Below, piece after piece: positions 1 through 12,016 of a DNA stretch of 64,000 nt. Each line of letters starts with the position of its first letter. Within the stretch, counting starts at the first letter, position 1. A program made the translations under genes and the position numbers. The stretch is from contig NZ_JAAIXZ010000009.1 of assembly GCF_010894435.1 (NCBI RefSeq), positions 167,342-231,341 on the forward strand. Reading direction: 5' to 3'. The notes under the pieces were generated by a model. That model was not told where the DNA came from and did not search any database. It worked only from the letters and a program-made list of their open reading frames with translations. The stretch is from Pyxidicoccus trucidator (lineage in GTDB: Bacteria; Myxococcota; Myxococcia; Myxococcales; Myxococcaceae).

Positions 1-1340
1 ACAGCGGCTGCGAGACTCCGGACTTGCTGGCGCAGGTGAAGCAGCTGACGGGGCAGGACGTGAGCTCCTTCCACGGCTGCTACCAGGCAACGTCCTTCAC
101 CCTGCGCGGGGACTTGAGCGCCGACTCCAGCTGCCCGAATGCACCCGGCGGCAACTACAACCTGAGCGGCTTCGTCAGCCCCGTCTGCTCGACCAATGGG
201 GGCGACGGCGGCCAGGGCAACGACGGCGGCCAGGGCAACGACGGCGGCCAGGGCAACGACGGCGGCCAGGGCAGCGACGGCGGCCAGGGCAACGACGGCG
301 GCCAGACGTGCGGCAATCCGGAGGTGCACGTCTTCGGGGTGTACGAAGCGAGTGGGGACCACACGTCCACGGGCGAGGCCACCGTCCACGTGGAGCGGAC
401 AGGCTCGCAGGTGCTCGTGCTCTCCTCTTATGAGTCGGTGCATTGGAAGGTCAGCGCCGTGCCCGGTGCCGACCTCCAGTACATCCTCGTGCTGGGGTAC
501 GACGCCCAAAGCGTGGATGCACCTCCCGGGGTGGAGGTGAAGGTGCTCGACACCGAGACGAGGGGCTTCATCCCGGAATGCGGGTACGAGTACCCGGACG
601 ACGACCCGCACAGCGGCTGCGAGACTCCGGACTTGCTGGCGCAGGTGAAGCAGCTGACGGGGCAGGACGTGAGCTCCTTCCACGGCTGCTACCAGGCAAC
701 GTCCTTCACCCTGCGCGGGGACTTGAGCGCCGACTCCAGCTGCCCGAGTGCACCCGGCGGCAACTACAACCTGAGCGGCTTCGTCGACCCCGTCTGCTCG
801 ACCAATGGGGGCGACGGCGGCCAGACGTGCGGCAATCCGGAGGTGCACGCCTTCGGGGTGTACGAGGCGAGTGGGGACCACACGTCCACGGGCGAGGCCA
901 CGGTGCACGTGGAGCGGACGGGCTCGCAGGTGCTCGTGCTCTCCTCTTATGAGTCGGTGCATTGGAAGGTCAGCGCCGTGCCCGGTGCCGACCTCCAGTA
1001 CATCCTCGTACTGGGATACGACGCCCAGAGCGTGGAAGCACCTCCCGGGGTGGAGGTGAAGGTGCTCGATACCGAGACGAGGGGCTTCTTCGCGGGATGC
1101 GGGTACGAATACCCGGATGATGACCCGCACAGCGGCTGCGAGACTCCAGACTTGCTGGCGCAGGTGAAGCAGCTGACGGGGCAGGAAGTGAGTTCCTTCC
1201 ACGGCTGCTACCAGGCAACGTCCTTCACCTTGCACGGGGACTTGAGCGCCGACTCCAGCTGCCCGAATGTACCCGGCGGCAACTACAACCTGAGCGGCTT
1301 CGTCAACCCCGTCTGCTCAGGGAGCGGCCCCTCCCCCTGA
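1..1340 (+). CDS. Repetitive secreted-type protein, 5' end outside window
   Basis: The reading frame is open from the first complete codon (nt 3) and the residues there already match the repeat, so the gene begins upstream of the window. The visible part is two long tandem units and the start of a third, beginning at nt 1, 610 and 1129. Each unit has a Cys-containing module (motifs SGCETPDLLAQVKQLTG, SSFHGCYQATSF, GGNYNLSGFV) and a beta-rich module (VHVERTGSQVLVLSSYESVHWKV). The paired cysteines and lack of catalytic motifs suggest an exported structural or adhesive protein. The first unit carries an extra Gly-rich linker that the second lacks. I recognise no named family. The C-terminus is a short Pro/Ser tail. 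Confidence 0.8.
   Translation, partial: SGCETPDLLAQVKQLTGQDVSSFHGCYQATSFTLRGDLSADSSCPNAPGGNYNLSGFVSPVCSTNGGDGGQGNDGGQGNDGGQGNDGGQGSDGGQGNDGGQTCGNPEVHVFGVYEASGDHTSTGEATVHVERTGSQVLVLSSYESVHWKVSAVPGADLQYILVLGYDAQSVDAPPGVEVKVLDTETRGFIPECGYEYPDDDPHSGCETPDLLAQVKQLTGQDVSSFHGCYQATSFTLRGDLSADSSCPSAPGGNYNLSGFVDPVCSTNGGDGGQTCGNPEVHAFGVYEASGDHTSTGEATVHVERTGSQVLVLSSYESVHWKVSAVPGADLQYILVLGYDAQSVEAPPGVEVKVLDTETRGFFAGCGYEYPDDDPHSGCETPDLLAQVKQLTGQEVSSFHGCYQATSFTLHGDLSADSSCPNVPGGNYNLSGFVNPVCSGSGPSP
216..305 (+). repeat. Five 18-bp GNDGGQ-encoding tandem repeats
   Basis: Five in-frame 18-bp copies encode GNDGGQ (one reads GSDGGQ) inside the Cys-rich repeat protein. The next large unit lacks all five, which accounts exactly for the 90-bp difference between unit lengths (609 versus 519 bp). 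Such an array can expand or contract by slippage without shifting the frame. Confidence 0.9.
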
Positions 1341-1377: not shown

Positions 1378-1441
1378 ACATTCCGAGGTGCGGACTGATT
1401 GAATCCGGAGGATGCGACTCTACAAAGAGAGCGGGTCCGAC

Positions 1442-2656
1442 ATGCTTGCTTGCGGCCTTGGGCGTATTTCACACCAGGGAGCGGCGTGGGCCTTCGTCGC
1501 GCTCCTGCTGGCTTCCGGGGTCGTGTCCTCAGGCTGTATCGAGTCTGTCGAGCCCGAGCCGGAGCTCGGCGCTTCCCAGGCGGAGCTGGAGCGGGTGGCC
1601 GTCACCGTTCCAATCGACCACTGCATGCTCCAGGGAATACCGGGAACGCCCTACTGGCAGACGATGCAGTCGAACTGCGTCGGCAACGGCGCGTGCAGAG
1701 CTTCGGCGAATGCCGAGTGCCAGGCGGTGGGCGACGTCTACCTGTGCCCCTGTCAGATGCTGCCGGAGGGCTGCGCGGTCTCCGAGCTGCTCCCTGGACT
1801 CGGCTCTCCCAGTTATGCCGAACGCGAAGCGGCTTCCGCGAAGCTCCTGAGCTGCTGCACGCACGACTCATATCTCGCCACCATCAACGCGCGAGCAGCC
1901 TCCACCTCCGATGAAGAAGTCCGGGTCCGCTTGCAGCGTGGCGCAGCGGCCTGCTCGGCGGCGCTGCACCCCTGCGGGACGAACATGATAGGTGGCATCA
2001 AGGAGGAAGAGGGGCTGTGCCTCTACACCGTGTCGGTGGCTCCGGATGCCACGAAGGCCCAGCCGAATACCGCCACCTGCGCGTACGACGCGGCCCGTGG
2101 CCTCTGGGTGCTGAAGGTATCCATGCCCTGCAAGACGACGCAGGTGCAGCTGTCGAGATTCCGTCCGAACTCGGGCGATGTGATCCCGACGCCGGTGCTG
2201 GGCCCATCCAACTGCGCTCAAACCCTGGTGGTTCCCGCGGACATGCTGCCTTCGGGGCAGGCCGCGTATGCCATCTCGCAGCCCGTCGCCGAGAAGGTGG
2301 ATGGTGTGAGCACGGCACCAGAGCTGTGCGGTGACGAGGCACTCCGTGCGGAGGCCGCGGCGGACCTTGTCGCTGGCGGAGTGCCGGCCAACACGTGCAC
2401 GAACGACCCCATCACCTACACGGATTGGGGCCGCCAGCCGCGAGCCCGAGCTATCACCTGCGGCGGAGTCACGCCCGGCTACTACTGGACCGATGCGCCA
2501 CCGCCCCCCGCCATGGACGCGGGCACCGACGGAGGCAGCACCCCTCCGTCCCCCGGAGGCCCAGGAGGCCTGGATGGAGGCACGGACGGCGGCTCCTCGC
2601 CCCCGCCAATCTTCCATGACGCCGGCACCGTCCTCTCCTTCCCTTTGGGAAACTGA
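1442..2656 (+). CDS. Predicted lipoprotein of unknown function
   Basis: About 404 residues from ATG 1442. The frame also opens at ATG 1412, but the later start puts a normal signal peptide at the N-terminus. The signal peptide has a hydrophobic core (WAFVALLLASGVV) and a lipobox ending SSGC, so an outer-membrane or surface lipoprotein is likely. The body contains a cluster of cysteines (CVGNGACRASANAECQAVG, CPCQMLPEGC, LLSCCTH), suggesting disulfide-stabilised modules. The C-terminal 70 residues are a Gly/Asp/Pro/Ser tail (DAGTDGGSTPPSPGG) typical of myxobacterial surface proteins. No catalytic motif or known family is recognised. It is convergent with the next gene, with only about 20 bp between the stops. 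Confidence 0.8.
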   Translation: MLACGLGRISHQGAAWAFVALLLASGVVSSGCIESVEPEPELGASQAELERVAVTVPIDHCMLQGIPGTPYWQTMQSNCVGNGACRASANAECQAVGDVYLCPCQMLPEGCAVSELLPGLGSPSYAEREAASAKLLSCCTHDSYLATINARAASTSDEEVRVRLQRGAAACSAALHPCGTNMIGGIKEEEGLCLYTVSVAPDATKAQPNTATCAYDAARGLWVLKVSMPCKTTQVQLSRFRPNSGDVIPTPVLGPSNCAQTLVVPADMLPSGQAAYAISQPVAEKVDGVSTAPELCGDEALRAEAAADLVAGGVPANTCTNDPITYTDWGRQPRARAITCGGVTPGYYWTDAPPPPAMDAGTDGGSTPPSPGGPGGLDGGTDGGSSPPPIFHDAGTVLSFPLGN

Positions 2657-2677: not shown

Positions 2678-5600
2678 TCACTGCGAAGCGACCGTGTCCC
2701 CTTCCTCCTCCGGTTGCCTCAGCGGCCAGAGGAGGCTGGCCATGCGCATGTAGAGGTGGCTCAAGTCGCGGAGCTCCTCCTCACACACTTCGATGGCGAC
2801 CTGGAGGACCCTCCCGGGCGCGAGCGTGACGGTGGAGGGGAGCCTCGCCTGGAGGCTGGGCTGCAGTCTCTGCGGCACGGCACTGACGATGTCGCGCTTC
2901 TTGAGGTCGTCGTCGTAGAGGCTTGCCCACTCCAGGAGTTGTCGCCGCAGCTCTCGCCGCAGTCTCTCCTCGGGACCGAAGACCTGCACGCACATCTGGA
3001 ACAACTCCGAGCCGGCACCGGAGACGAGATCGGACCAGGTGTTGGCAAAGAGAGGCTCTCCCGCGGCCCGCCAGAAAACGCCCCACGTCGGGCTGGCGTG
3101 CTCCTGCATGAAGAGGCCGCGAGCTGTGAGGAAGCTCAGCATCGAATCGTGGAAGAACCGCACCTGGCTGGGTTCCTGGCCGGGCCGGACGCTTGGGTCG
3201 TCCGGTACCAGGACTCCCGCCTGCAGCAGCATCCCCATCCGCTCCCGAGCCGGCGCATTGCGATAGCGCAAGGTGTGGAGGCCCTGAACCCAATAGGTCT
3301 GAAGGCAGAGCTCTCCAGCCCAGGTCAGTAGCTCCGTATCGTCCTCGTGCGGTCCTGTCCCCTGCCGCCCGAGCAGGTGCCGGAAGGACTGCTCGTAGAG
3401 CGCGGCAATGCTCGTTCCCGCCACCTCGCCGAGCAGAATCGCCAGCCTGACCAGGATATTCAGGTAGGTCCCGTCCGGCCCCCGGCACGCCTGCCGGGTG
3501 CCTTCGCTGAGCGCGTGAGTCGCTCCAGGAGCGTAGGCCCGGATGAAACGGTCAAGCGCCTGCTCATCCAGACGCTGCGGCTCGGCGATGAGCCACCGCT
3601 CCGAGCATTCGACCGCCTGCCGGAACCCGGGGTGGGGACGGGAGGTGAGCAGGAGCCGCACCACGCTCCCGTATCGACCCTCGATGAATTCCTGGACCGC
3701 CTCGGGGCTGAGCGCCGACTCCGTGAGGCCATCCACGCACAGGACACAGTCGCCCCGGAGAAGCAGCACCTCTATGATGTCGGGCGTTAGCGGGCCGGAC
3801 TCCCATGGCCATAGGGCGGCGTCTCCCAGGGAGGCAAGCCGGGCATCACACAGCACCGGAAGAGGTCGCGAGGGCTCCTTCTCAAAGCCTATCAGCATCA
3901 GGCGTACCACCTCACGCAGGAGCGCGCTCTTCCCTCGGCCGCCCGTAGACTCAATGAGGGCGTTGCCTCGCTGTCCGTCATCGGGATGCGAAAGGAAGCG
4001 GACGAGCCGCTCCTCCGGCGGCAGAAGGGATTCCTCAGGCAAGGCCGTCGGCTTCGAACCTTCGCTGGAGAGGGAGTGTATCCGGCCCTCGCGAAAATCC
4101 ACCGGGAGCGAAACGAAATGCTCGTCGTTGGCTTGACGCCGCAAGGCCTCGAGCTTGCGCCGCACATAAGCGACGTAGTCCGCGAAGATGCGCCGGCGCG
4201 TGGCTGGCAGTTCGAGCGCCAGCGGGACCAGCCACTGAAATGGCTTGGCGGAGGACAGCAGGTAGAACACCTGTGGTGAGACGGCTCCCAATATCAGGCA
4301 GAGGAGCATCTCCACGAAGAGCACTCCCACGAAGGCAGGGAAATGGATTCTCGCTTGACGGGCCACGTTGGCGAAAACGAACCCGCTGCCCACGAGGACC
4401 TGAACGCTCCAGCTCATGAAGGGCAGCCAGCGACGGACGAGGCGCGTGCGCGGCAGCACCAGTAGGGGCACAACGAAGAACAGCGTCGCCACGAGGCAGG
4501 CCACTGCCGTTCGGAACCAGATCTGCTCGCTGAGCGGCGCCAGGAAGGGAACGTCCTTCACGACCAGCTCGGTGCGGGTTCCGATCTCGTCCTGGTACTT
4601 GAAGATGACCGTGTAGCGGCGCTTCCCCAGCGAAAGCTCGCCCAGCGCCCAGTTGAATCGGGGCTGCGGCGCGCCTGGGGAATAGCTCCGGATGGCCGAG
4701 GCCACCGGCTCGTCTGGACGGGCGGGATCCAGGATGAGAATCTCCAGGGCGCCCCCGACCTCGGCCGCGTAGGTCCGGCCCGGCCAGTCCAGGTCGAGAC
4801 TGTCCACCTCTGTCCCGTGGAGCGAGGCCCGGACTTCGAGTCTTCCCTGGACGCGGACGTCTTGGCCGTTCTCGACCTCCAAGGTGCCCCGCTCGAGCTC
4901 CAGGACGGCTCCTACTTGCTGCAGGGGGACATAGGCGAAGCTGGCGGGAGTCGCCTTGATCCAGCCATGTCCCTTCTTCGCTGAAGGCAGGACATACGCC
5001 ATGTCCGCGGTTGCCAGCACGAAGTGCTCTTCGAGATAGGCCTCGTCCGACAGGGAGATGAAATACAATGAGCCATCGCGTGAGGATTGAAGCCACACGC
5101 CCTCGCCCACGGGGTCCACATTCAACGAGCTGACGTCCGCGCCATCGAGCAAGGGGCTCGCCCTGACCGAGCCATGGTCGGCTCGCAGGTGGATGACACT
5201 GTTTCCCCAGAGGAGGAGGTCGTCGGAAGCTGTGGGAATGGTGGAGAGCGCTTCCACCGCATCCGAGTCGACCCGAGGGAGCAGCTTCGGCCCGCTGGCG
5301 AGAATCCTCCCACTCTCGTCCAACAGATAGGCGTCGCCCGAGTGGGTCAATGCCCAGACGCGACCGGAAGGAGTCCTGGACACGAGGACCTTCTGGCCCT
5401 TGAAGAGCGGTACCTTTGCCAACATGGACCGTCCCTGGAGGTCCACCAGATAGAGTCCGCCCTCCCAGCCGGCGGAAGGCTTCAGGGCTCCCGCTACCCA
5501 CACACGCGTCCCGTCGTCCTGCGCGACGACCTGCCTGATCCCCATCCCATCCAGCAGCAGGGAGGAGCGGGCTTTGGCAGGTGCCTCCAGGTCGACAGAG

Positions 5601-6481
5601 AAGAGCCGCCGTGCGACTGGCACGGAGGGAGCCGGGGAACTCACCTCCGCCATCACCCATGCCCGCGTTCCGGAGCGCTCGGGGACGACCCAGATGTTCT
5701 CCTCCGCCGTTAGCAACACCCCCGAGCCTGGAAGCCTGGCTCCTGCATCGACAAAGAAGAGTTGCCGGTCCGTCTTGAACCAGGCCCCCGGTCCCTTGCC
5801 CACCGGTATCACCTGCCACGCCGCCATGTTCGCGCCGCCTTCAAGACCCAGCGCCTTGAGCGAGGAGACAGTCCTGACCTCCCCATCCGCATCGAGCAGC
5901 GCGAGGAAATCCGAGCCCCCACGGCTGAAAACGACCCAGAGGTCCGCATGCGGCTCCAGGTCCTCCTCGAGCACGTGTCGGGGATGGACATCGTAGGGAG
6001 AGAGGAAGACCTGCTCCCGGATATGAACGATCCGGTCGGCCTCGAGCACGATGCGTCCGGCAGGTCCTCCGGGAGTGGCGTCCACCAGGTAGACCCGAGC
6101 CCCGTTGTAGCGCGGCTCCTGCTCGGCGGAGATGACCCACGCCCGTCCCGGGTGCTCCGTCTGGATCAACTCTCCGGAGGGCCGCCAGGGGTTCCGCTCA
6201 TAGGCGCGAGTTCCCTCGAGATCCACCACGGAGATGCCACCTTCGCTCACGACCCAAGCACGCTCCCCATCACCGAAAGGGACGAGGCTCGCCTGGGTGG
6301 CCGCCACGGGAACCGGCCAGAAGGAAGGGCCCCGCACCTGATTCTCCGCACGGGCCGGAGTCTGCCCGCACAGCATCAAGCCCGCCGCCATCAACAGGCA
6401 GAGAAGCTCTCGTACCTGTGAGCCGTGCCCAGCGCGGTATGCCCCCATGAGCAGGAAGCATCTGCATCCCCGCTTCCCCAT
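2678..6481 (-). CDS. Transmembrane STAND/NACHT-like NTPase with extracytoplasmic beta-propeller
   Basis: About 1267 residues. ATG 6481 is chosen because GGGAG lies about 8 nt upstream; earlier TTG/GTG starts are possible. Order: a signal peptide (LLCLLMAAGLMLCG, ending PARA); roughly residues 50-545 of propeller-like strands (recurrent VYLVDA, LYLVDL, AWVVSEGG); a beta-sandwich region near 550-640 resembling the Y_Y_Y domain of hybrid sensors; membrane segments near 650-670 and 695-735; then a cytoplasmic NTPase. The NTPase shows a Walker-A-like loop (STGGRGKSAL, near 847), a NACHT-like Walker B (VLCVDGLTE, near 915) and LLLTSRP (near 946), followed by a helical C-terminus. The architecture suggests a receptor coupling an external signal to NTP-driven switching. 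The trigger and output are unknown. The Walker A first glycine is replaced by serine. Confidence 0.8.
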   Translation of the reverse strand: MGKRGCRCFLLMGAYRAGHGSQVRELLCLLMAAGLMLCGQTPARAENQVRGPSFWPVPVAATQASLVPFGDGERAWVVSEGGISVVDLEGTRAYERNPWRPSGELIQTEHPGRAWVISAEQEPRYNGARVYLVDATPGGPAGRIVLEADRIVHIREQVFLSPYDVHPRHVLEEDLEPHADLWVVFSRGGSDFLALLDADGEVRTVSSLKALGLEGGANMAAWQVIPVGKGPGAWFKTDRQLFFVDAGARLPGSGVLLTAEENIWVVPERSGTRAWVMAEVSSPAPSVPVARRLFSVDLEAPAKARSSLLLDGMGIRQVVAQDDGTRVWVAGALKPSAGWEGGLYLVDLQGRSMLAKVPLFKGQKVLVSRTPSGRVWALTHSGDAYLLDESGRILASGPKLLPRVDSDAVEALSTIPTASDDLLLWGNSVIHLRADHGSVRASPLLDGADVSSLNVDPVGEGVWLQSSRDGSLYFISLSDEAYLEEHFVLATADMAYVLPSAKKGHGWIKATPASFAYVPLQQVGAVLELERGTLEVENGQDVRVQGRLEVRASLHGTEVDSLDLDWPGRTYAAEVGGALEILILDPARPDEPVASAIRSYSPGAPQPRFNWALGELSLGKRRYTVIFKYQDEIGTRTELVVKDVPFLAPLSEQIWFRTAVACLVATLFFVVPLLVLPRTRLVRRWLPFMSWSVQVLVGSGFVFANVARQARIHFPAFVGVLFVEMLLCLILGAVSPQVFYLLSSAKPFQWLVPLALELPATRRRIFADYVAYVRRKLEALRRQANDEHFVSLPVDFREGRIHSLSSEGSKPTALPEESLLPPEERLVRFLSHPDDGQRGNALIESTGGRGKSALLREVVRLMLIGFEKEPSRPLPVLCDARLASLGDAALWPWESGPLTPDIIEVLLLRGDCVLCVDGLTESALSPEAVQEFIEGRYGSVVRLLLTSRPHPGFRQAVECSERWLIAEPQRLDEQALDRFIRAYAPGATHALSEGTRQACRGPDGTYLNILVRLAILLGEVAGTSIAALYEQSFRHLLGRQGTGPHEDDTELLTWAGELCLQTYWVQGLHTLRYRNAPARERMGMLLQAGVLVPDDPSVRPGQEPSQVRFFHDSMLSFLTARGLFMQEHASPTWGVFWRAAGEPLFANTWSDLVSGAGSELFQMCVQVFGPEERLRRELRRQLLEWASLYDDDLKKRDIVSAVPQRLQPSLQARLPSTVTLAPGRVLQVAIEVCEEELRDLSHLYMRMASLLWPLRQPEEEGDTVASQ

Positions 6482-7536: not shown

Positions 7537-8295
7537 TCAGGCCGAGTCACCCATCCACACGAGCGACTGCTGCCGCTCGGCCAGCTCCTTCACCGCCCGC
7601 AGGGTGGAGCGGGTCTCCTGGCCCAGCAGGTGCCGCGCCAGGAGATGGGCCTCGCGTCGGATGGAGGCCCTTCCCGGGGGAGGCTCGACCGGGTCGGGCT
7701 CCATCTCCAGGGTGTGCTCCGCCGTCACCACCACCGCGTCGCCCTCGGAGTCGAGCCGCCAGGCGCCCTGGTGCGAGCGGAAGAGCGGGAGCGAGTGCAC
7801 CTGCTCGTAGTCGATGCGTCGGCTCTCATCCCCCCGGCGGACGGCGCGACACACGCGCGTTCCCGAGGGGCCCTCCGCCTCCAGCTCGAAGTCCTGGTAG
7901 CTGGGGGTCTGCTCCCGCAGCGTCACCCGCCGCACGTGTGGCAGGACGGTCGGCCAGCGCTCCACCTCCCATAGCAGGCCATAAACGAACTCGGCGGGAG
8001 CCTGGATGGTCATCGTCTCCGAGAAGCAGAGGCTCCCCGGGGTGGCCAGCGCGATCTTCTGGTAATACGCGTAGGGGGCCGTGGGGTTGCGCTGGATGAG
8101 CGCGTCCAGCTCCTCGGGAGAGTCGGCCTCGATGAGCCAGATTCCCGCGGCCATGCCGGCTCGCACGAAGGCATGCTTGAGGCGGCCGGATTCGGACAGC
8201 TCCTGGAGGTAGCGGTGCCCGCGATCGACGGTCTCCAGATAAGTGGCAATCGAGAGGTCGCGCGGAGCGGCCTCGGTCAGGACTGCGAACAGCAT
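7537..8295 (-). CDS. Muconolactone-isomerase-like/SRPBCC aromatase-cyclase fusion
   Basis: 252 residues; GGAGG lies 6 nt before ATG 8295. Residues 1-95 form a small ferredoxin-like alpha+beta domain of the YciI/muconolactone isomerase type (GIWLIEADSPEELDALI). Residues 100-250 are an SRPBCC (START-like) domain related to type II polyketide aromatases (ETMTIQAPAEFVYGLLWEVERWPTVLPHV). SRPBCC cyclases fold nascent poly-beta-ketones in a hydrophobic cavity. The gene is last in a leftward three-gene group with a stand-alone isomerase-like gene and an SRPBCC-ligase fusion, facing away from the KS/ACP genes. It is likely a cyclase or aromatase acting on the nascent chain or an early ring. The fusion itself is uncommon. 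Confidence 0.8.
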   Translation of the reverse strand: MLFAVLTEAAPRDLSIATYLETVDRGHRYLQELSESGRLKHAFVRAGMAAGIWLIEADSPEELDALIQRNPTAPYAYYQKIALATPGSLCFSETMTIQAPAEFVYGLLWEVERWPTVLPHVRRVTLREQTPSYQDFELEAEGPSGTRVCRAVRRGDESRRIDYEQVHSLPLFRSHQGAWRLDSEGDAVVVTAEHTLEMEPDPVEPPPGRASIRREAHLLARHLLGQETRSTLRAVKELAERQQSLVWMGDSA

Positions 8296-8314
8296 GGGAT
8301 TCCTCCGGTTCGGG

Positions 8315-8617
8315 TTATGCGTTGTCCGCCATCGCCCGGGTCAGGCTCCCCAGGCTCTTGAGGGCGAGCAGCGGAAAGACCTGGGTCTTCTGGTACAGCG
8401 CCAGGGGGCCGAGCATGAGGAAGCGGTGCAGTTCCTCCGGCGACTCGACGTCGAAGATGAGGACGTTTCCCCCGCCCCCTCTCTGGACGAAGTAGGAGTG
8501 CAACTTCCCCTCGGCCTTCAGGCCCAGGTAGTACTGCTGCTCGCGTTCTCTGAGTTCCTCCACCTGCTGCGGGAGCAGATGGCGCGTGTCTTCTCGGGTG
8601 ATGCAGGCAATCAACAT
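8315..8617 (-). CDS. Muconolactone-isomerase/YciI-like small protein
   Basis: About 100 residues. ATG 8617 has AGGAG 7 nt upstream; a GTG two codons earlier overlaps the stop of the upstream ligase gene. Translation is probably coupled to it. The fold features (MLIACITREDT start, ESPEELHRFLMLGPLAL) match the dimeric alpha-beta barrel group that includes muconolactone delta-isomerase and small polyketide cyclases or monooxygenases. It is related to the N-terminal domain of the adjacent fusion protein. A role in ring closure or quinone formation is inferred from context; no catalytic residue can be assigned. Confidence 0.75.
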   Translation of the reverse strand: MLIACITREDTRHLLPQQVEELREREQQYYLGLKAEGKLHSYFVQRGGGGNVLIFDVESPEELHRFLMLGPLALYQKTQVFPLLALKSLGSLTRAMADNA

Positions 8618-8619
8618 GC

Positions 8620-10710
8620 TCACACTCCTGGGGGTGACGGCGGGGCAGCCCGCTCCTGGAGCCCAGCGTTCTGCTGGGCCCGCTCCCGGAGCACGCGCCG
8701 CAACAGCTTTCCGGCTCCGCTCCTGGGAATGGTGTTGATGAACTCGATGTGCGCGATGCGCTTGTAGCCAGCCAGTCTGGGATTGACCTCCGCGAGGACC
8801 CGCGCGGGCTCCGGGGCGGAGGGCCGCGGCACGACGAACGCATACGGAAGTTGCTCGTCGTGGCCCACGTCCACCCCCACCACGAGGCAGTCCTTCACGG
8901 CGGGGTGCTCCTTGAGGGCAGCCTCGAGCTCGGCGGGAGCAATGCTGTGCCCCTCGTGCTTGATGACATCCTTGAGCCGGTCGACGTAGTGCAGGAAGCC
9001 CTCGTCATCGACGAACACCAGGTCCCCCGTGTAGAGCCAGCCGTCGCGCAGCGCCCGGCGCGTCTCCTCCTCGCCCTTCCAGTAGCCCCGCATCACCTGG
9101 GGCCCGCGGATGCAGAGCTGGCCCACGGTGCCGGGCGGCACCTCGTGCTCGCCGGTGAGGGTGTCGACGATGCGCTGCTCGGTGTCCGCCACGGGAAGCC
9201 CGCAGGCGCCCGGGGGGCCCTGGTAGCCCGGAAACACCGGCGTCGCATGGGTGAGGGGCGAGGCCTCGGTCAGCCCGAACCCCTGCAGCACGGGGAGGCC
9301 GAGCCGGCGGCTCGCCTGCCGGGCCACCCGGACATCCAGGCTGGAGGCGCCGCTGCTGATGAACCGCAGCCGGGGCGCACGCAGGGACTCCAGGTCCTCC
9401 AGCGCGCTCAGCGCGGCGACCATCGGCGTCACGGTGTAGAGCTGGGTGGCCTCGTGCTCACGGGCCAGGTGCAGCAGGCGGCGAGGGTCCCAGCGGTCCA
9501 GCAGCACCTGGGTCGCACCGGAGGCCATGCTGGCACCCAGGTGCATGCTGAGCAGCACCGGGAGCCCGTTCAGCAGCACGTCGGCCTCGGACACGTGGTG
9601 GGCGCTGACGAACTGGAGCGCGTTGCTCACCAGGTTGCGGTGGCTCAGCATCACGCCCTTGGGAAGCCCTGACGTGCCGCTGGAGTACGGGATGGACAGG
9701 ACGGCGTCCGGGGAGACCTCCACCTCCGGGAAGGACTCGGGAGACTGGCGGGCCGCCAGCTCGAGCAGGGAGCTGTCGCCGGAGGCAGCCCCCCCGAAGC
9801 CCACCTGCCGCCGCAGCCGGGGGAGCCGCTCGCGCAGGCCCGCCACGAGCGGGTACATGGCGCCCGAGAGCACCGCGGCGACGGCCTCCGTGTCGCGGAG
9901 CTGATGCTCAATCTCTCGCGGTCCATAGAGGGGGTTGATGGGGGTGACCACCGCGCCAATGCGCGAGATGGCGAGGAAGGTGACGAGCGCCTCCGGCCGG
10001 AGGCAGGCCGTGAGGGCGACGACCTCGCCTGGCCGCACCCCCAGCTCCTCGTGCAGCACCCGGGCGACCGCATCCGTCAGCGCATCCAGCGCGCTGAACG
10101 TCACGGAGATGCCGTCGTGGAGGATGGCGTCCCGATGCGGGCTGCGCCGGGCCGTGGCCCGCAGCAACCCGTCATAGCGGATGGGTGGAGGGCTGAACCG
10201 TGTGCGCGTCAGCGTCAGCAGCTCACTGATGGGGCGACGTCCCCCCTCGCTGGCCGCCTTGAGCGCCCGCAGCTCCTCCCGGCTGCTCGCGTCGAGCACC
10301 TTTCGGAGCCACTGCTCGGCCTCTTGCGCGCTCGCAAAGCGGTCCGAGCCGGCGCTCACAGTGCAGTCGCGGGTGAGCACGACCCGGCAGCCGAAGCCGG
10401 GCTCGGGCACTACCTCCCAGGCGCCGCTCACGGCCGTCAGCGGTGGCAGGGGGGACTCCTGCTCGAAGTCGATCCGGTAGCCGGATGGAGACAGCACACG
10501 CCGTGAGCGCGCGGTGTGAGTTCCACCGCCGATGTGCGCCGTGAGCTCGATACGCATCGAGCCCTCGCCCTGTTCGAGGACGGAGGCGGCCACGCAGCTC
10601 GGGAAGATCTCCGGCCAGCGGTCTACCGAGACGAGCAGCTCGAAGACCTGGGCGGGCTCCTGGCGAATCCAGGTGGAGTGCTCCAGGCGGAAGGACGCGG
10701 TGTCGGACAT
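8620..10710 (-). CDS. SRPBCC aromatase/cyclase fused to acyl-CoA ligase
   Basis: 696 residues from ATG 10710 with GGAGAGAGG upstream. Residues 1-170 are an SRPBCC domain (STWIRQEPAQVFELLVSVDRWPEIFP). It is related to the first half of the didomain aromatase across the divergent promoter and shares its 'EELRALKA' exit segment. Residues 190-690 are an adenylate-forming ligase: P-loop YSSGTSGLPKG near 343, QGFGLTEASP, the GWLYTGDL hinge region, and a C-terminal lysine in a PRSGAGKLLRR segment. It should adenylate a carboxylate and load it onto CoA or a carrier. It may make the starter unit or activate a released acid for further cyclisation. The fusion is unusual for type II PKS. Confidence 0.85.
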   Translation of the reverse strand: MSDTASFRLEHSTWIRQEPAQVFELLVSVDRWPEIFPSCVAASVLEQGEGSMRIELTAHIGGGTHTARSRRVLSPSGYRIDFEQESPLPPLTAVSGAWEVVPEPGFGCRVVLTRDCTVSAGSDRFASAQEAEQWLRKVLDASSREELRALKAASEGGRRPISELLTLTRTRFSPPPIRYDGLLRATARRSPHRDAILHDGISVTFSALDALTDAVARVLHEELGVRPGEVVALTACLRPEALVTFLAISRIGAVVTPINPLYGPREIEHQLRDTEAVAAVLSGAMYPLVAGLRERLPRLRRQVGFGGAASGDSSLLELAARQSPESFPEVEVSPDAVLSIPYSSGTSGLPKGVMLSHRNLVSNALQFVSAHHVSEADVLLNGLPVLLSMHLGASMASGATQVLLDRWDPRRLLHLAREHEATQLYTVTPMVAALSALEDLESLRAPRLRFISSGASSLDVRVARQASRRLGLPVLQGFGLTEASPLTHATPVFPGYQGPPGACGLPVADTEQRIVDTLTGEHEVPPGTVGQLCIRGPQVMRGYWKGEEETRRALRDGWLYTGDLVFVDDEGFLHYVDRLKDVIKHEGHSIAPAELEAALKEHPAVKDCLVVGVDVGHDEQLPYAFVVPRPSAPEPARVLAEVNPRLAGYKRIAHIEFINTIPRSGAGKLLRRVLRERAQQNAGLQERAAPPSPPGV

Positions 10711-10888
10711 GTGGGCTGCCTCTCTCCAATCGTTGGGGCGCGGCCTGCTGGCTCGCCCTGCCAAGAGATTGGAGTGAAGGGCCGCCGCGTTGTGACCCGC
10801 GCTCGCGCGCGAGCTTCTTCCATCACAGAAGCAATTCATTCCTTCCATCTGAGGTGAAGACCGAACGGGACATCAGCCGAGGATGAAC

Positions 10889-12016
10889 ATGACGAACCAA
10901 CCGCCCTTTCACCCATCAGCGTCGTCCGCGCCGGGAGCAGCGAGGCCCTGGCGGCTCGCGCCAGTCCACGAACCATCCACTCCCCTCTTCAATCGCATGC
11001 GACTGGGAGGACTGGAGTGGGAAGACATCCGCCCCTGCCTGGGGGCTTTCAAGGATGCGCCGCTCCTGGATGAGCAGGCCCTGTGGCACGAGCTCTGGAC
11101 CACGCTCGGGCACACCGCCGAAGAGCTCGCCATGAAGGCGGGCGGCACGCGCGCGCGCGATACCCGCCGGCGGATGCTCCTGCGGTCCGCGGCCTGCCAC
11201 CACTTCGCGCAACTGCTCTACTTCGACAACCCCGAGGCGAAGTTCATGACCCGGCGGCGGGTGACGCGGCTCTTCGAGTCCGCCAGCCCACTGCTTCCCT
11301 GGGAGGTCCGCTCGCTGAGAATCCCCTATCAGGACTTCTCACTGCCCGCGTACCTGCTGGCGGCGAGCTCCGTGGAGCGCACGCCCTGCGTCCTCCTGGT
11401 GAATGACCTGGGCACGGCCAAGGAGATTGAGCTGTATGCCCTTGCGCGGGAGTTCCTCTCGCACGGCGTCTCCGTGCTGCTCTTCGACGGACCGGGCCAG
11501 GGAGAGCTGGCGGGGCTCCATCGACTCCCGGTGCCGTTCGAGCAGGTCGTCGCCGCGGTGCTGGACAGCGTCTGCCGGCTCTCGCAGGTAGACACGGAGC
11601 GGCTCGGTATCTGCGGCCTCGGCCACGGCGGCTACCTGGCGGCCCGGGCGGCGGCGCTCCTGCCCCAGCGGCTCCAGGCCTGCGTCAGCATCTCGGGCGG
11701 GCATGACCACGACCACTACGCGAGGCTGCCCGAGCTGGCGCGCGAGGAATTCAAGTACGCCTACTGCCAGCGCTCCGACACCGCCATGGCGCGGCTCGCC
11801 CGGGAGGAGCTGAGCCTGAGAGGGACTCCGAGGCTGAAGGTGCCCCTCCTCGTCATCCAGGACCCCGAGGACTCCGCGTGGCCCCTCGCCTCCTGCATCC
11901 AGCTCCTCGAATGGGCCCGCGGTGACAGGGACTTCATGTGCCTTCCGCTCGAGCAGCTCGCGTTCGCGAGCCTCGGCCCCTGGATGGCCCAGGCCCTCTC
12001 GCGCGCGGACGCCTGA
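10889..12016 (+). CDS. Ayg1/FrsA-like alpha/beta hydrolase homologue lacking catalytic Ser and His
   Basis: 375 residues; ATG 10889 has GAGG 6 nt upstream (ATG 10883 is too close to it). An N-terminal helical cap precedes an alpha/beta hydrolase core with the family motif LFDGPGQGE. It matches the Ayg1/FrsA/dihydroxypseudooxynicotine-hydrolase type and is a clear paralogue of the gene at 22666. The nucleophile elbow reads CGLGHGG, so Gly245 replaces the Ser245 found in the paralogue. The position of the paralogue's His357 is Leu. The acidic residue in the DPED segment is kept. It is probably a pseudoenzyme that binds or shapes the polyketide, or partners the active paralogue. It is the first gene of the rightward PKS operon. 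Confidence 0.8.
   Translation: MTNQPPFHPSASSAPGAARPWRLAPVHEPSTPLFNRMRLGGLEWEDIRPCLGAFKDAPLLDEQALWHELWTTLGHTAEELAMKAGGTRARDTRRRMLLRSAACHHFAQLLYFDNPEAKFMTRRRVTRLFESASPLLPWEVRSLRIPYQDFSLPAYLLAASSVERTPCVLLVNDLGTAKEIELYALAREFLSHGVSVLLFDGPGQGELAGLHRLPVPFEQVVAAVLDSVCRLSQVDTERLGICGLGHGGYLAARAAALLPQRLQACVSISGGHDHDHYARLPELAREEFKYAYCQRSDTAMARLAREELSLRGTPRLKVPLLVIQDPEDSAWPLASCIQLLEWARGDRDFMCLPLEQLAFASLGPWMAQALSRADA

Follow-up and report, generated by a model that had tools for sequence, protein, structure and literature searches.

Results

Gene and domain architecture

Within the 64,000-nucleotide stretch of the genome of the soil bacterium Pyxidicoccus trucidator analysed here (hereafter the window), an open reading frame (ORF) on the minus strand, which begins with an ATG at 6481 and whose stop codon ends at 2678, encodes a protein of 1267 aa (Table 1). 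An in-frame TTG start would give a product 5 aa longer. From the N to the C terminus, the protein consists of an export signal, a beta-propeller, a beta-strand domain, three membrane helices and an NTPase. Eighteen relatives of near-full length can be aligned with it, and in eight close pairs, which have members in common, dN is lower than dS in the propeller, strand domain, membrane, nucleotide-binding domain (NBD), winged-helix and C-terminal regions; the short signal region is the only one to depart from this pattern, in two of the eight pairs. Because of these alignable relatives and the low dN, the ORF looks like a working gene. The domain order, the export signal, the NACHT-type fold with its motifs and the purifying selection can each be read from the sequence or from the model. 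Searches of Pfam, PADLOC and NCBIfam with the 1267-aa protein returned no family at the cut-off or at E 0.01, and no effector domain was recognised in it. Sequence searches for solved relatives gave nothing notable for the whole protein (best E 1), while the best match of the core profile was a designed protein (E 0.13).

Table 1. Features of the gene and its predicted protein, in window coordinates
Feature	Position	Strand	Residues	Basis or remark
Whole gene	2678..6481	minus	1267 aa	ORF reading, alignment of relatives, dN/dS
Export signal	6344..6481	minus	1-46	hydropathy and comparison of 20 members
Exported beta-propeller	4922..6343	minus	about 47-520	AlphaFold model, Foldseek, VIA-align
Beta-strand domain adjoining membrane	4532..4804	minus	about 560-650	model
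Three membrane helices	4271..4525	minus	653-737	middle one weak; hydropathy, helices in model
NACHT-type nucleotide-binding domain	3572..3967	minus	about 839-970	model, structure and profile comparison
Walker A GGRGKSAL	3920..3943	minus	847-854	19/19 rows of alignment A1
Walker B DGLTE	3719..3733	minus	917-921	19/19 rows of alignment A1
TSRP	3635..3646	minus	946-949	arginine invariant
Winged-helix domain	3104..3346	minus	about 1046-1126	motif FFHDSMLSFLTA at 1109-1120
C-terminal helices	2681..3103	minus	1127-1267	where NLR HD2 would be; model

Exported part and membrane helices

A preliminary description of this DNA had proposed a signal peptide followed by about 500 residues of extracytoplasmic propeller, and both are borne out. 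A hydrophobic stretch with its top score at residues 27-37 follows basic residues at the N terminus, and the N terminus is of the export type in all 20 members examined (weakest in L032), for which we assigned the start codons ourselves; a strict lipobox is found in eight of the 20. The propeller was confirmed as a predicted fold by the AlphaFold model, Foldseek and VIA-align, and its location behind the export signal suggests that it lies outside the cytoplasm; a propeller predicted inside the cytoplasm had been named beforehand as a refuting result. The Y_Y_Y-like label of the same description found no support in the sequence. The adjoining region (residues 561-650) is modelled mostly as strands, at the place expected for Y_Y_Y, but its profile scores lie near or below the shuffle maxima (residues 540-690: score 19.1, shuffle maximum 18.9, probability 2.1%; residues 600-690: 20.0, 22.3 and 4.9%, respectively) in a comparison with five Y_Y_Y domains from this genome, among which L074 is under the cut-off.

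The membrane helices expected ahead of the NTPase appear in the hydropathy profile as two strong segments (653-682 and 710-745) with a weaker one between them (687-706, mean hydropathy 1.2), and the middle helix is weak in most members. The third helix carries an acidic residue in 14 of 16 rows, which, judged by eye, is absent mid-helix in both rows from metagenome-assembled genomes (MAGs). Hydropathy suggests that the propeller is periplasmic and the NTPase cytoplasmic, although the weak second helix and the charged loop 2 count against this topology. Loop 1 has a charge of +4 and the segment past helix 3 one of +9/-5, and the charge rule is only of partial help since loop 2, expected outside, also has +2.

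NTPase domain

As a refutation test, residues 820-1010 had been named beforehand as the place of the proposed NACHT-like NTPase, and an NBD is indeed predicted there, with a winged helix beyond it (pLDDT of the NTPase model 73.7). Both Foldseek and VIA place the modelled NTPase nearest to the NACHT domains of NLRs. Its ten top-ranking Foldseek matches in the PDB are all NLRC4, NAIP or NLRP3 chains (best E 4.1e-8, with TMq low, at 0.23-0.36 in these ten), the top VIA score is Z 13.1 to NLRP3, and the first 12 VIA rows are NLR chains aligned over 309-406 residues, past the NBD and across the winged helix. Several NLR rows of VIA-align extend into the C-terminal helices. When compared by hhalign with NACHT proteins encoded in this genome, the profile gave 96.0% and a score of 66.6, whereas none of 40 column shuffles scored above 17.2; the NACHT set comprised six sequences, with L069 under the cut-off and L068 over it only with its neighbours. 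The Pfam NACHT family appears below its cut-off in two of 19 members (best E 0.062).

Members of the NACHT clade have a small residue straight after the Walker B aspartate, and this residue (DG) is present in 19 of 19 A1 rows and in both MAGs. NACHT Walker B motifs typically have two acids (DE) further on. Here only the second acid is kept, the two MAG sequences reading DGISE and DGLSE, whereas this genome's NACHT proteins show DGLDE. Walker A reads GGSGKSAL in L033, and TSRP is presumably at the sensor-1 position. As a regular expression, the winged-helix motif matched P0001 and P0002 only and none of the NACHT proteins L064-L067, L042 and L043; by eye, it resembles those of L064, L042 and L043, the sequences inspected in this way.

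Distribution, evolution and neighbourhood

The architecture also occurs in other myxobacteria, with relatives in 15 of the 96 genomes of the source family. Within the window's genus, the gene is present in one of 27 genomes and in none of the other 26, while a split copy and a fragment were seen elsewhere. In other myxobacterial genomes, five further matches are weak (L023-L027, E 9.3e-6 to 9.1e-4) and cover only residues 107-198; as matches to propeller stretches, they were not counted as family members. A search of genome contigs gave no match with the single protein as query and six loci among 57 stretches with the alignment as query.

Further relatives lie in two MAGs of other phyla. The Acidobacteriota MAG keeps the domain layout, while in the Phycisphaerales MAG an exported, faintly HEAT-like ORF precedes a membrane-NACHT ORF; an exported ORF of another kind fits an exchangeable sensor. 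The core was detected in one of 396 genomes of the phylum of the former and one of 392 of the phylum of the latter (at most three candidates scored per genome), and in one of 397 and one of 148 genomes of the classes (Phycisphaerales and Thermoanaerobaculia, respectively; at most three, then at most eight candidates), each time in the known MAG only. Members may have been missed in these searches because only three or eight first-look candidates were scored per genome. The exported part evolves faster than the NTPase by sequence comparison, with propeller dN exceeding NBD dN in all 12 pairs.

For 20 loci of the family, among them that of the window, and for L032 and L033, we compared surroundings of about 20 kb, and no partner gene was common to all of them. 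The ORF picker, which was tuned to high GC3, overlooked the gene in both L052 and L032 and returned a single ORF in L033, so absences at these three loci mean little. A DUF4184-type neighbour cluster accompanies the gene at eight of ten loci of the second clade (a Pfam scan covered one of these eight) and at none of the ten of the window's clade. At the locus in the window, ten neighbours of the gene were scanned; several are biosynthetic or transport proteins, others are uncharacterised, and no Pfam defence family was found among them. No mobile copies were detected in plasmids or phages with the core as query, and viral contigs contained no copy of the gene.

Discussion

Propeller-Y_Y_Y sensor kinases combine an exported propeller, a strand domain, a membrane helix and a cytoplasmic output, and this genome encodes Y_Y_Y proteins in which a membrane segment follows the Y_Y_Y domain. 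The protein described here resembles these hybrid two-component sensors in layout, with NACHT in place of the kinase and with three membrane helices, in support of the likeness drawn in the preliminary description; Pfam and NCBIfam scans detected no kinase domain in the 1267-aa protein, and an NTPase fold takes its place. Animal NLRs, which include inflammasome proteins, are cytosolic and carry C-terminal repeats. The modelled NBD and winged helix are nearest to those of NLRC4, NLRP3 and NOD2, whereas here the NACHT module is C-terminal, behind membrane helices, and joined to an exported propeller. The antiphage bNACHT proteins likewise place a NACHT module in a bacterium, but follow the order effector-NACHT-sensor in the accessible part of the source (PMC12169576), while in our protein the propeller and membrane helices precede NACHT, no effector is recognised and PADLOC gave no match.

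Partial precedents exist for individual features of this design. The cyanobacterial WRAP and fungal NACHT proteins unite a propeller with a STAND or NACHT ATPase in a single chain, although the propeller part of WRAP is C-terminal to the ATPase and the accessible text mentions no membrane or export (PMC9218822). In the multicellular bacterium Thiohalocapsa PB-PSB1, NACHT targets of diversity-generating retroelements have a predicted membrane or periplasmic placement; their lectin-type sensor is diversified by the retroelement, the NACHT domain of one target is itself predicted to be periplasmic, and the sections available describe no exported propeller, unlike here (PMC10907252). The nearest precedent for the topology, as far as the available excerpt goes, is found in oyster receptor-like TRADD-N proteins, in which an extracellular domain and a transmembrane helix are followed by an intracellular part possibly with a STAND NTPase; these are animal proteins with a cysteine-rich ectodomain, a DED and TRADD-N, and without an outside propeller (PMC8195603). 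In the open-access literature, with subscription papers mostly outside the search, we recognised no report of an exported propeller joined via membrane helices to NACHT.

We propose, with a probability of roughly 0.6, that the gene encodes a membrane receptor for events in the envelope, equipped with a NACHT switch. Envelope stress, prey or phage, suggested in the preliminary description, may be what it senses. The periplasmic propeller would bind a ligand or partner, and the resulting change would be relayed by the strand domain and the three membrane helices to a NACHT module in the cytoplasm, made up of the NBD, the winged helix and the helices at the HD2 place. As in STAND proteins, this module would swap ADP for ATP and form a ring at the membrane. 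With neither a recognised effector domain nor a neighbour common to all loci, the output would most likely be a clustering of the membrane helices, which may form or gate a pore, or the recruitment of a protein encoded elsewhere. We infer these steps, from topology and ligand sensing through nucleotide exchange and ring assembly to output. The reading draws on the export signal, the propeller model, the likeness of the NTPase to NLR NACHT domains, the faster change of the exported part, the Phycisphaerales ORF pair and the short C-terminal part. Against this explanation we count the middling propeller model (mean pLDDT 63.3, pTM 0.56), the missing first acid of the Walker B DE pair, the assembly gap that splits the Phycisphaerales ORF pair (two undetermined bases plus a shift of frame) and the canonical NACHT order, with the effector first and the sensor last in the portion of the source available (PMC12169576).

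That canonical order would be kept if the protein worked inside-out, the NACHT module sensing something in the cytoplasm while the propeller-bearing membrane part acts as the effector, for example as a pore or as a regulator of an envelope protein. The N-terminal part does occupy the effector position of a canonical bNACHT protein, as the accessible text presents it (PMC12169576), and the weak middle helix and the acidic residue of the third helix are in line with such a role. We nevertheless consider it unlikely, as only ~140 residues lie between the winged helix and the C terminus, where a cytoplasmic sensor of the usual C-terminal kind would hardly fit, and it is the exported part that evolves fastest. 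We give less credence to a role as a scaffold in the membrane or as a housekeeping regulator acting on the envelope or on development, in which the NTPase would assemble or disassemble an envelope complex during normal growth, with no role in conflict. The place that the gene keeps beside the DUF4184-type cluster in the second clade fits such a settled function, as does the lack of recognised defence genes among the scanned neighbours at the window's locus, but the patchy occurrence in the window's genus and the split copy and fragment elsewhere fit an accessory gene.

It would be surprising if the NTPase proved to be another AAA/STAND-type P-loop protein outside the NACHT clade. AAA_16, AAA_35 and nSTAND_NTPase5 stand beside NACHT among the sub-threshold Pfam matches, an ORC chain ranks 11th in Foldseek, where all TM-scores are low, and ORC chains and NSF D2, aligned over about 190-210 residues, reach VIA Z of 11.5 and 11.3. 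However, NLR NACHT chains lead both structural comparisons and align over the winged helix too, the profile comparison favours NACHT, and the winged-helix motif is, by eye, like that of NACHT proteins.

More tentatively still, the family may represent a bacterial class of transmembrane NLRs, in which exchangeable exported sensors (propeller or helical repeats) sit on a constant membrane-NACHT core; we regard this as a speculative possibility. The membrane helices would then serve as a pore effector upon formation of the NACHT ring, and an attack on the envelope by a phage, predator or toxin would lead to a cell-fate decision. With a constant core and an exchangeable sensor, this proposal is directly testable via chimeras. 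If a NACHT switch were driven from beyond the inner membrane, NLR-type signalling would reach events in the envelope, and two logics that animals mostly separate, those of outward-looking receptors and inward-looking NLRs, would be joined. Were the transmembrane-NLR reading true, an NLR engine would be coupled to a recognition domain that is exported in the manner of Toll-like receptors.

The putative receptor gene and its NTPase

The receptor gene is the only full match in the 12.67-Mb genome (136 contigs), where a profile of the membrane-NACHT core finds one further weak stretch (35 positions, E 0.09). Its G+C content is 65.9%, against 68.5% for the window. Scans of the protein with Pfam, PADLOC and NCBIfam return no model at its cut-off, and a Pfam scan of 19 members yields weak matches only (NACHT, AAA_35 and AAA_16 two each, four others one each). 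The features are collected in the table.

Features of the receptor protein, its locus and related loci
Feature	Position	Strand	Description
Receptor gene	window 2678-6481	-	single open frame, 1267 aa
Export signal	residues 1-46		hydrophobic stretch
Predicted propeller	residues ~47-520		nearly all beta in model
Strand domain	residues ~560-650		mainly strands in model, reaching up to membrane
Membrane helices	residues 653-737		three predicted, middle one weak
Nucleotide-binding domain (NBD)	residues ~839-970		Walker A, DGLTE, TSRP
Winged helix	residues ~1046-1126		followed by helices to C-terminal end
438-aa ORF	window 24-1340	+	three similar ~140-residue blocks joined by linker
Linker repeat	window 203-305		tandem GNDGGQ-type, 18-base unit, 5.7 copies
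414-aa ORF	window 1412-2656	+	convergent; lipoprotein-like N-terminus (by eye)
Adjoining genes	window 7537-12016		polyketide-cyclase-like, muconolactone-isomerase-like, AMP-binding, FrsA-like hydrolase domains
Phycisphaerales ORF pair	L033 7476-11800		840-aa and 601-aa ORFs
Split copy in G095	L053 9600-9820		contig 10
DUF4184-type gene	L054 11712-12482		zinc-dependent phospholipase C-like

The model of the presumed cytoplasmic part (pLDDT 73.7, pTM 0.60) agrees with the preliminary description in placing an NTPase fold behind the membrane helices, its NBD being closest to NLR chains. Foldseek ranks 1-10 all go to chains of NLRC4, NAIP or NLRP3 (best E 4.1e-8; TMq 0.23-0.36, rmsd 8-15), followed at rank 11 by an ORC chain. 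In VIA, NLRP3, NLRC4, NLRP9 and NOD2 fill the first 12 rows (Z 12.0-13.1, 309-406 residues aligned, rmsd 5.5-8.9); Z is 11.5 for ORC and 11.3 for NSF D2, over ~190-210 residues, and 10.9, 10.4 and 10.2 for Dark, CED-4 and Apaf-1. Comparison by hhalign with PF05729 (NACHT) matches of the same genome gave 96.0% and a score of 66.6, and 40 column shuffles scored at most 17.2. By eye, the winged-helix motif FFHDSM.S(F/Y)LTA resembles YGFVHRGFLEYFCA in L064, one of these PF05729 matches, and the corresponding stretches of L042 and L043, NACHT-like proteins weakly matched by the family profile (E 2.3e-4 and 1.7e-5); a fixed-pattern search for the motif found no match in the three. The Walker B motif (DGLTE) departs from the typical NACHT form in one of its two acids. 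By domain, the receptor protein is a member of the NACHT clade.

The exported part and the membrane

A hydrophobic N-terminal stretch is present in 20 of 20 members, with start sites chosen by us, and 8 of the 20 have a strict lipobox. The following region is predicted to form a beta-propeller (model from five sequences, pLDDT 63.3, pTM 0.56). Foldseek against the PDB gave 726 matches at E <= 0.001; among the 50 listed, many are propeller proteins, some so named and others known to be such, with query TM-scores of only 0.16-0.36. The best 50 VIA-align rows have Z of 12.8-13.9 over 237-357 residues, and the nine-bladed eIF3b propeller aligns over 357. The export signal and this model uphold the proposal of an exported propeller ahead of the membrane. 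The strand domain had been called Y_Y_Y-like, an identity to which profile comparison gives no tie.

Across 16 aligned rows, loop 1 between the membrane helices carries at least two positive charges in 15, loop 2 carries 0-2, and the stretch after helix 3 carries 7-11. Helix 3 contains an acidic residue, judged by eye, in 14 of the 16, the two rows from metagenome-assembled genomes (MAGs) being those without.

The architectures of bNACHT antiphage proteins and of sensor kinases both differ from this one; bNACHT25 is described with the order effector, NACHT, sensor (PMC12169576). PMC10907252 predicts NACHT targets at the membrane or in the periplasm, with lectin sensors, in Thiohalocapsa, and PMC9218822 mentions propellers on STAND and NACHT ATPases. 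Among the texts consulted, the nearest precedent for the topology is the oyster TRADD-N proteins, built from an extracellular domain and a transmembrane helix, with STAND NTPases among the possible intracellular parts (PMC8195603); passages of PMC7159879, PMC13236601 and PMC4452313 describe nothing resembling the architecture.

Sequence and model analyses support the domain order, the export signal and the fold class. The most likely mechanism is drawn by analogy with known STAND proteins: the propeller would sense outside, the three helices would pass the signal on, and the NACHT module would switch between ADP and ATP and build a ring at the membrane, the output coming either from the helices or from a partner that is recruited.

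Distribution and phylogeny

Relatives in other myxobacteria, which the preliminary description had suggested seeking, occur in 15 of 96 genomes of the family (5 of 26 genera). The receptor gene is absent from the genus's 26 other genomes, all of which were negative in a separate search as well. Across the phylum, 20 of 195 genomes give a match, 15 of them those already counted and the other five showing no more than a weak propeller stretch. The named carriers are Archangium violaceum, Archangium lansinium and Hyalangium versicolor, and Hyalangium versicolor has a fragment besides. Eighteen near-full-length relatives can be aligned with the receptor protein.

Two MAGs carry the family into other phyla, and deeper sampling around both groups found no additional members. 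The Thermoanaerobaculia protein (1213 aa) aligns over its full length, at 31% for the core and 22% for the exported part, a putative propeller. In the Phycisphaerales MAG, a membrane-NACHT ORF of 601 aa comes straight after one of 840 aa whose N-terminus looks signal-like by eye and which has faint IBN_N/HEAT matches (E 0.03-0.62, below cut-offs). The ORFs are in different frames, with two undetermined bases between them, and sensor-domain exchange is possible. The midpoint-rooted tree, in which the Acidobacteriota row is very long, has two myxobacterial clades with support of 100/100 each, the window's mixing four genera and the second two.

Locus turnover and evolutionary rate

No neighbour at the window's locus clusters with genes of any other locus compared. 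Within its clade, neighbour clusters are common to at most 3 of 10 loci, those in three all from one genus; in the second clade, a DUF4184-type cluster is retained at 8 of 10 loci. Its gene lies near the receptor gene at these eight, which fall within L054-L062 (Pfam assignment on the L054 copy only).

Beside the receptor gene, the genes at 7537-12016 suggest a small biosynthetic cluster. The 414-aa ORF matches no Pfam family, and 21 bases separate its end from the stop of the receptor gene. The 438-aa ORF, likewise with no Pfam family, shares a cluster with a similar 260-aa ORF just upstream.

Two genomes of the window's clade have split or partial copies. G095 has, in addition to an intact copy elsewhere, one that a frame change divides just past membrane helix 1, reflecting either decay or a two-gene form; G100 has a fragment of ~220 residues. 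In the 8 close pairs of 12 compared, dN is below dS in the propeller, strand domain, membrane, NBD, winged-helix and C-terminal regions. Propeller dN exceeds NBD dN in all 12 pairs, which share members. Relaxed constraint would give the same faster propeller, so the pattern is no proof of conflict. Taken together, copy splitting, neighbour turnover and propeller rate fit an accessory receptor in which the part outside is the quickest to change.
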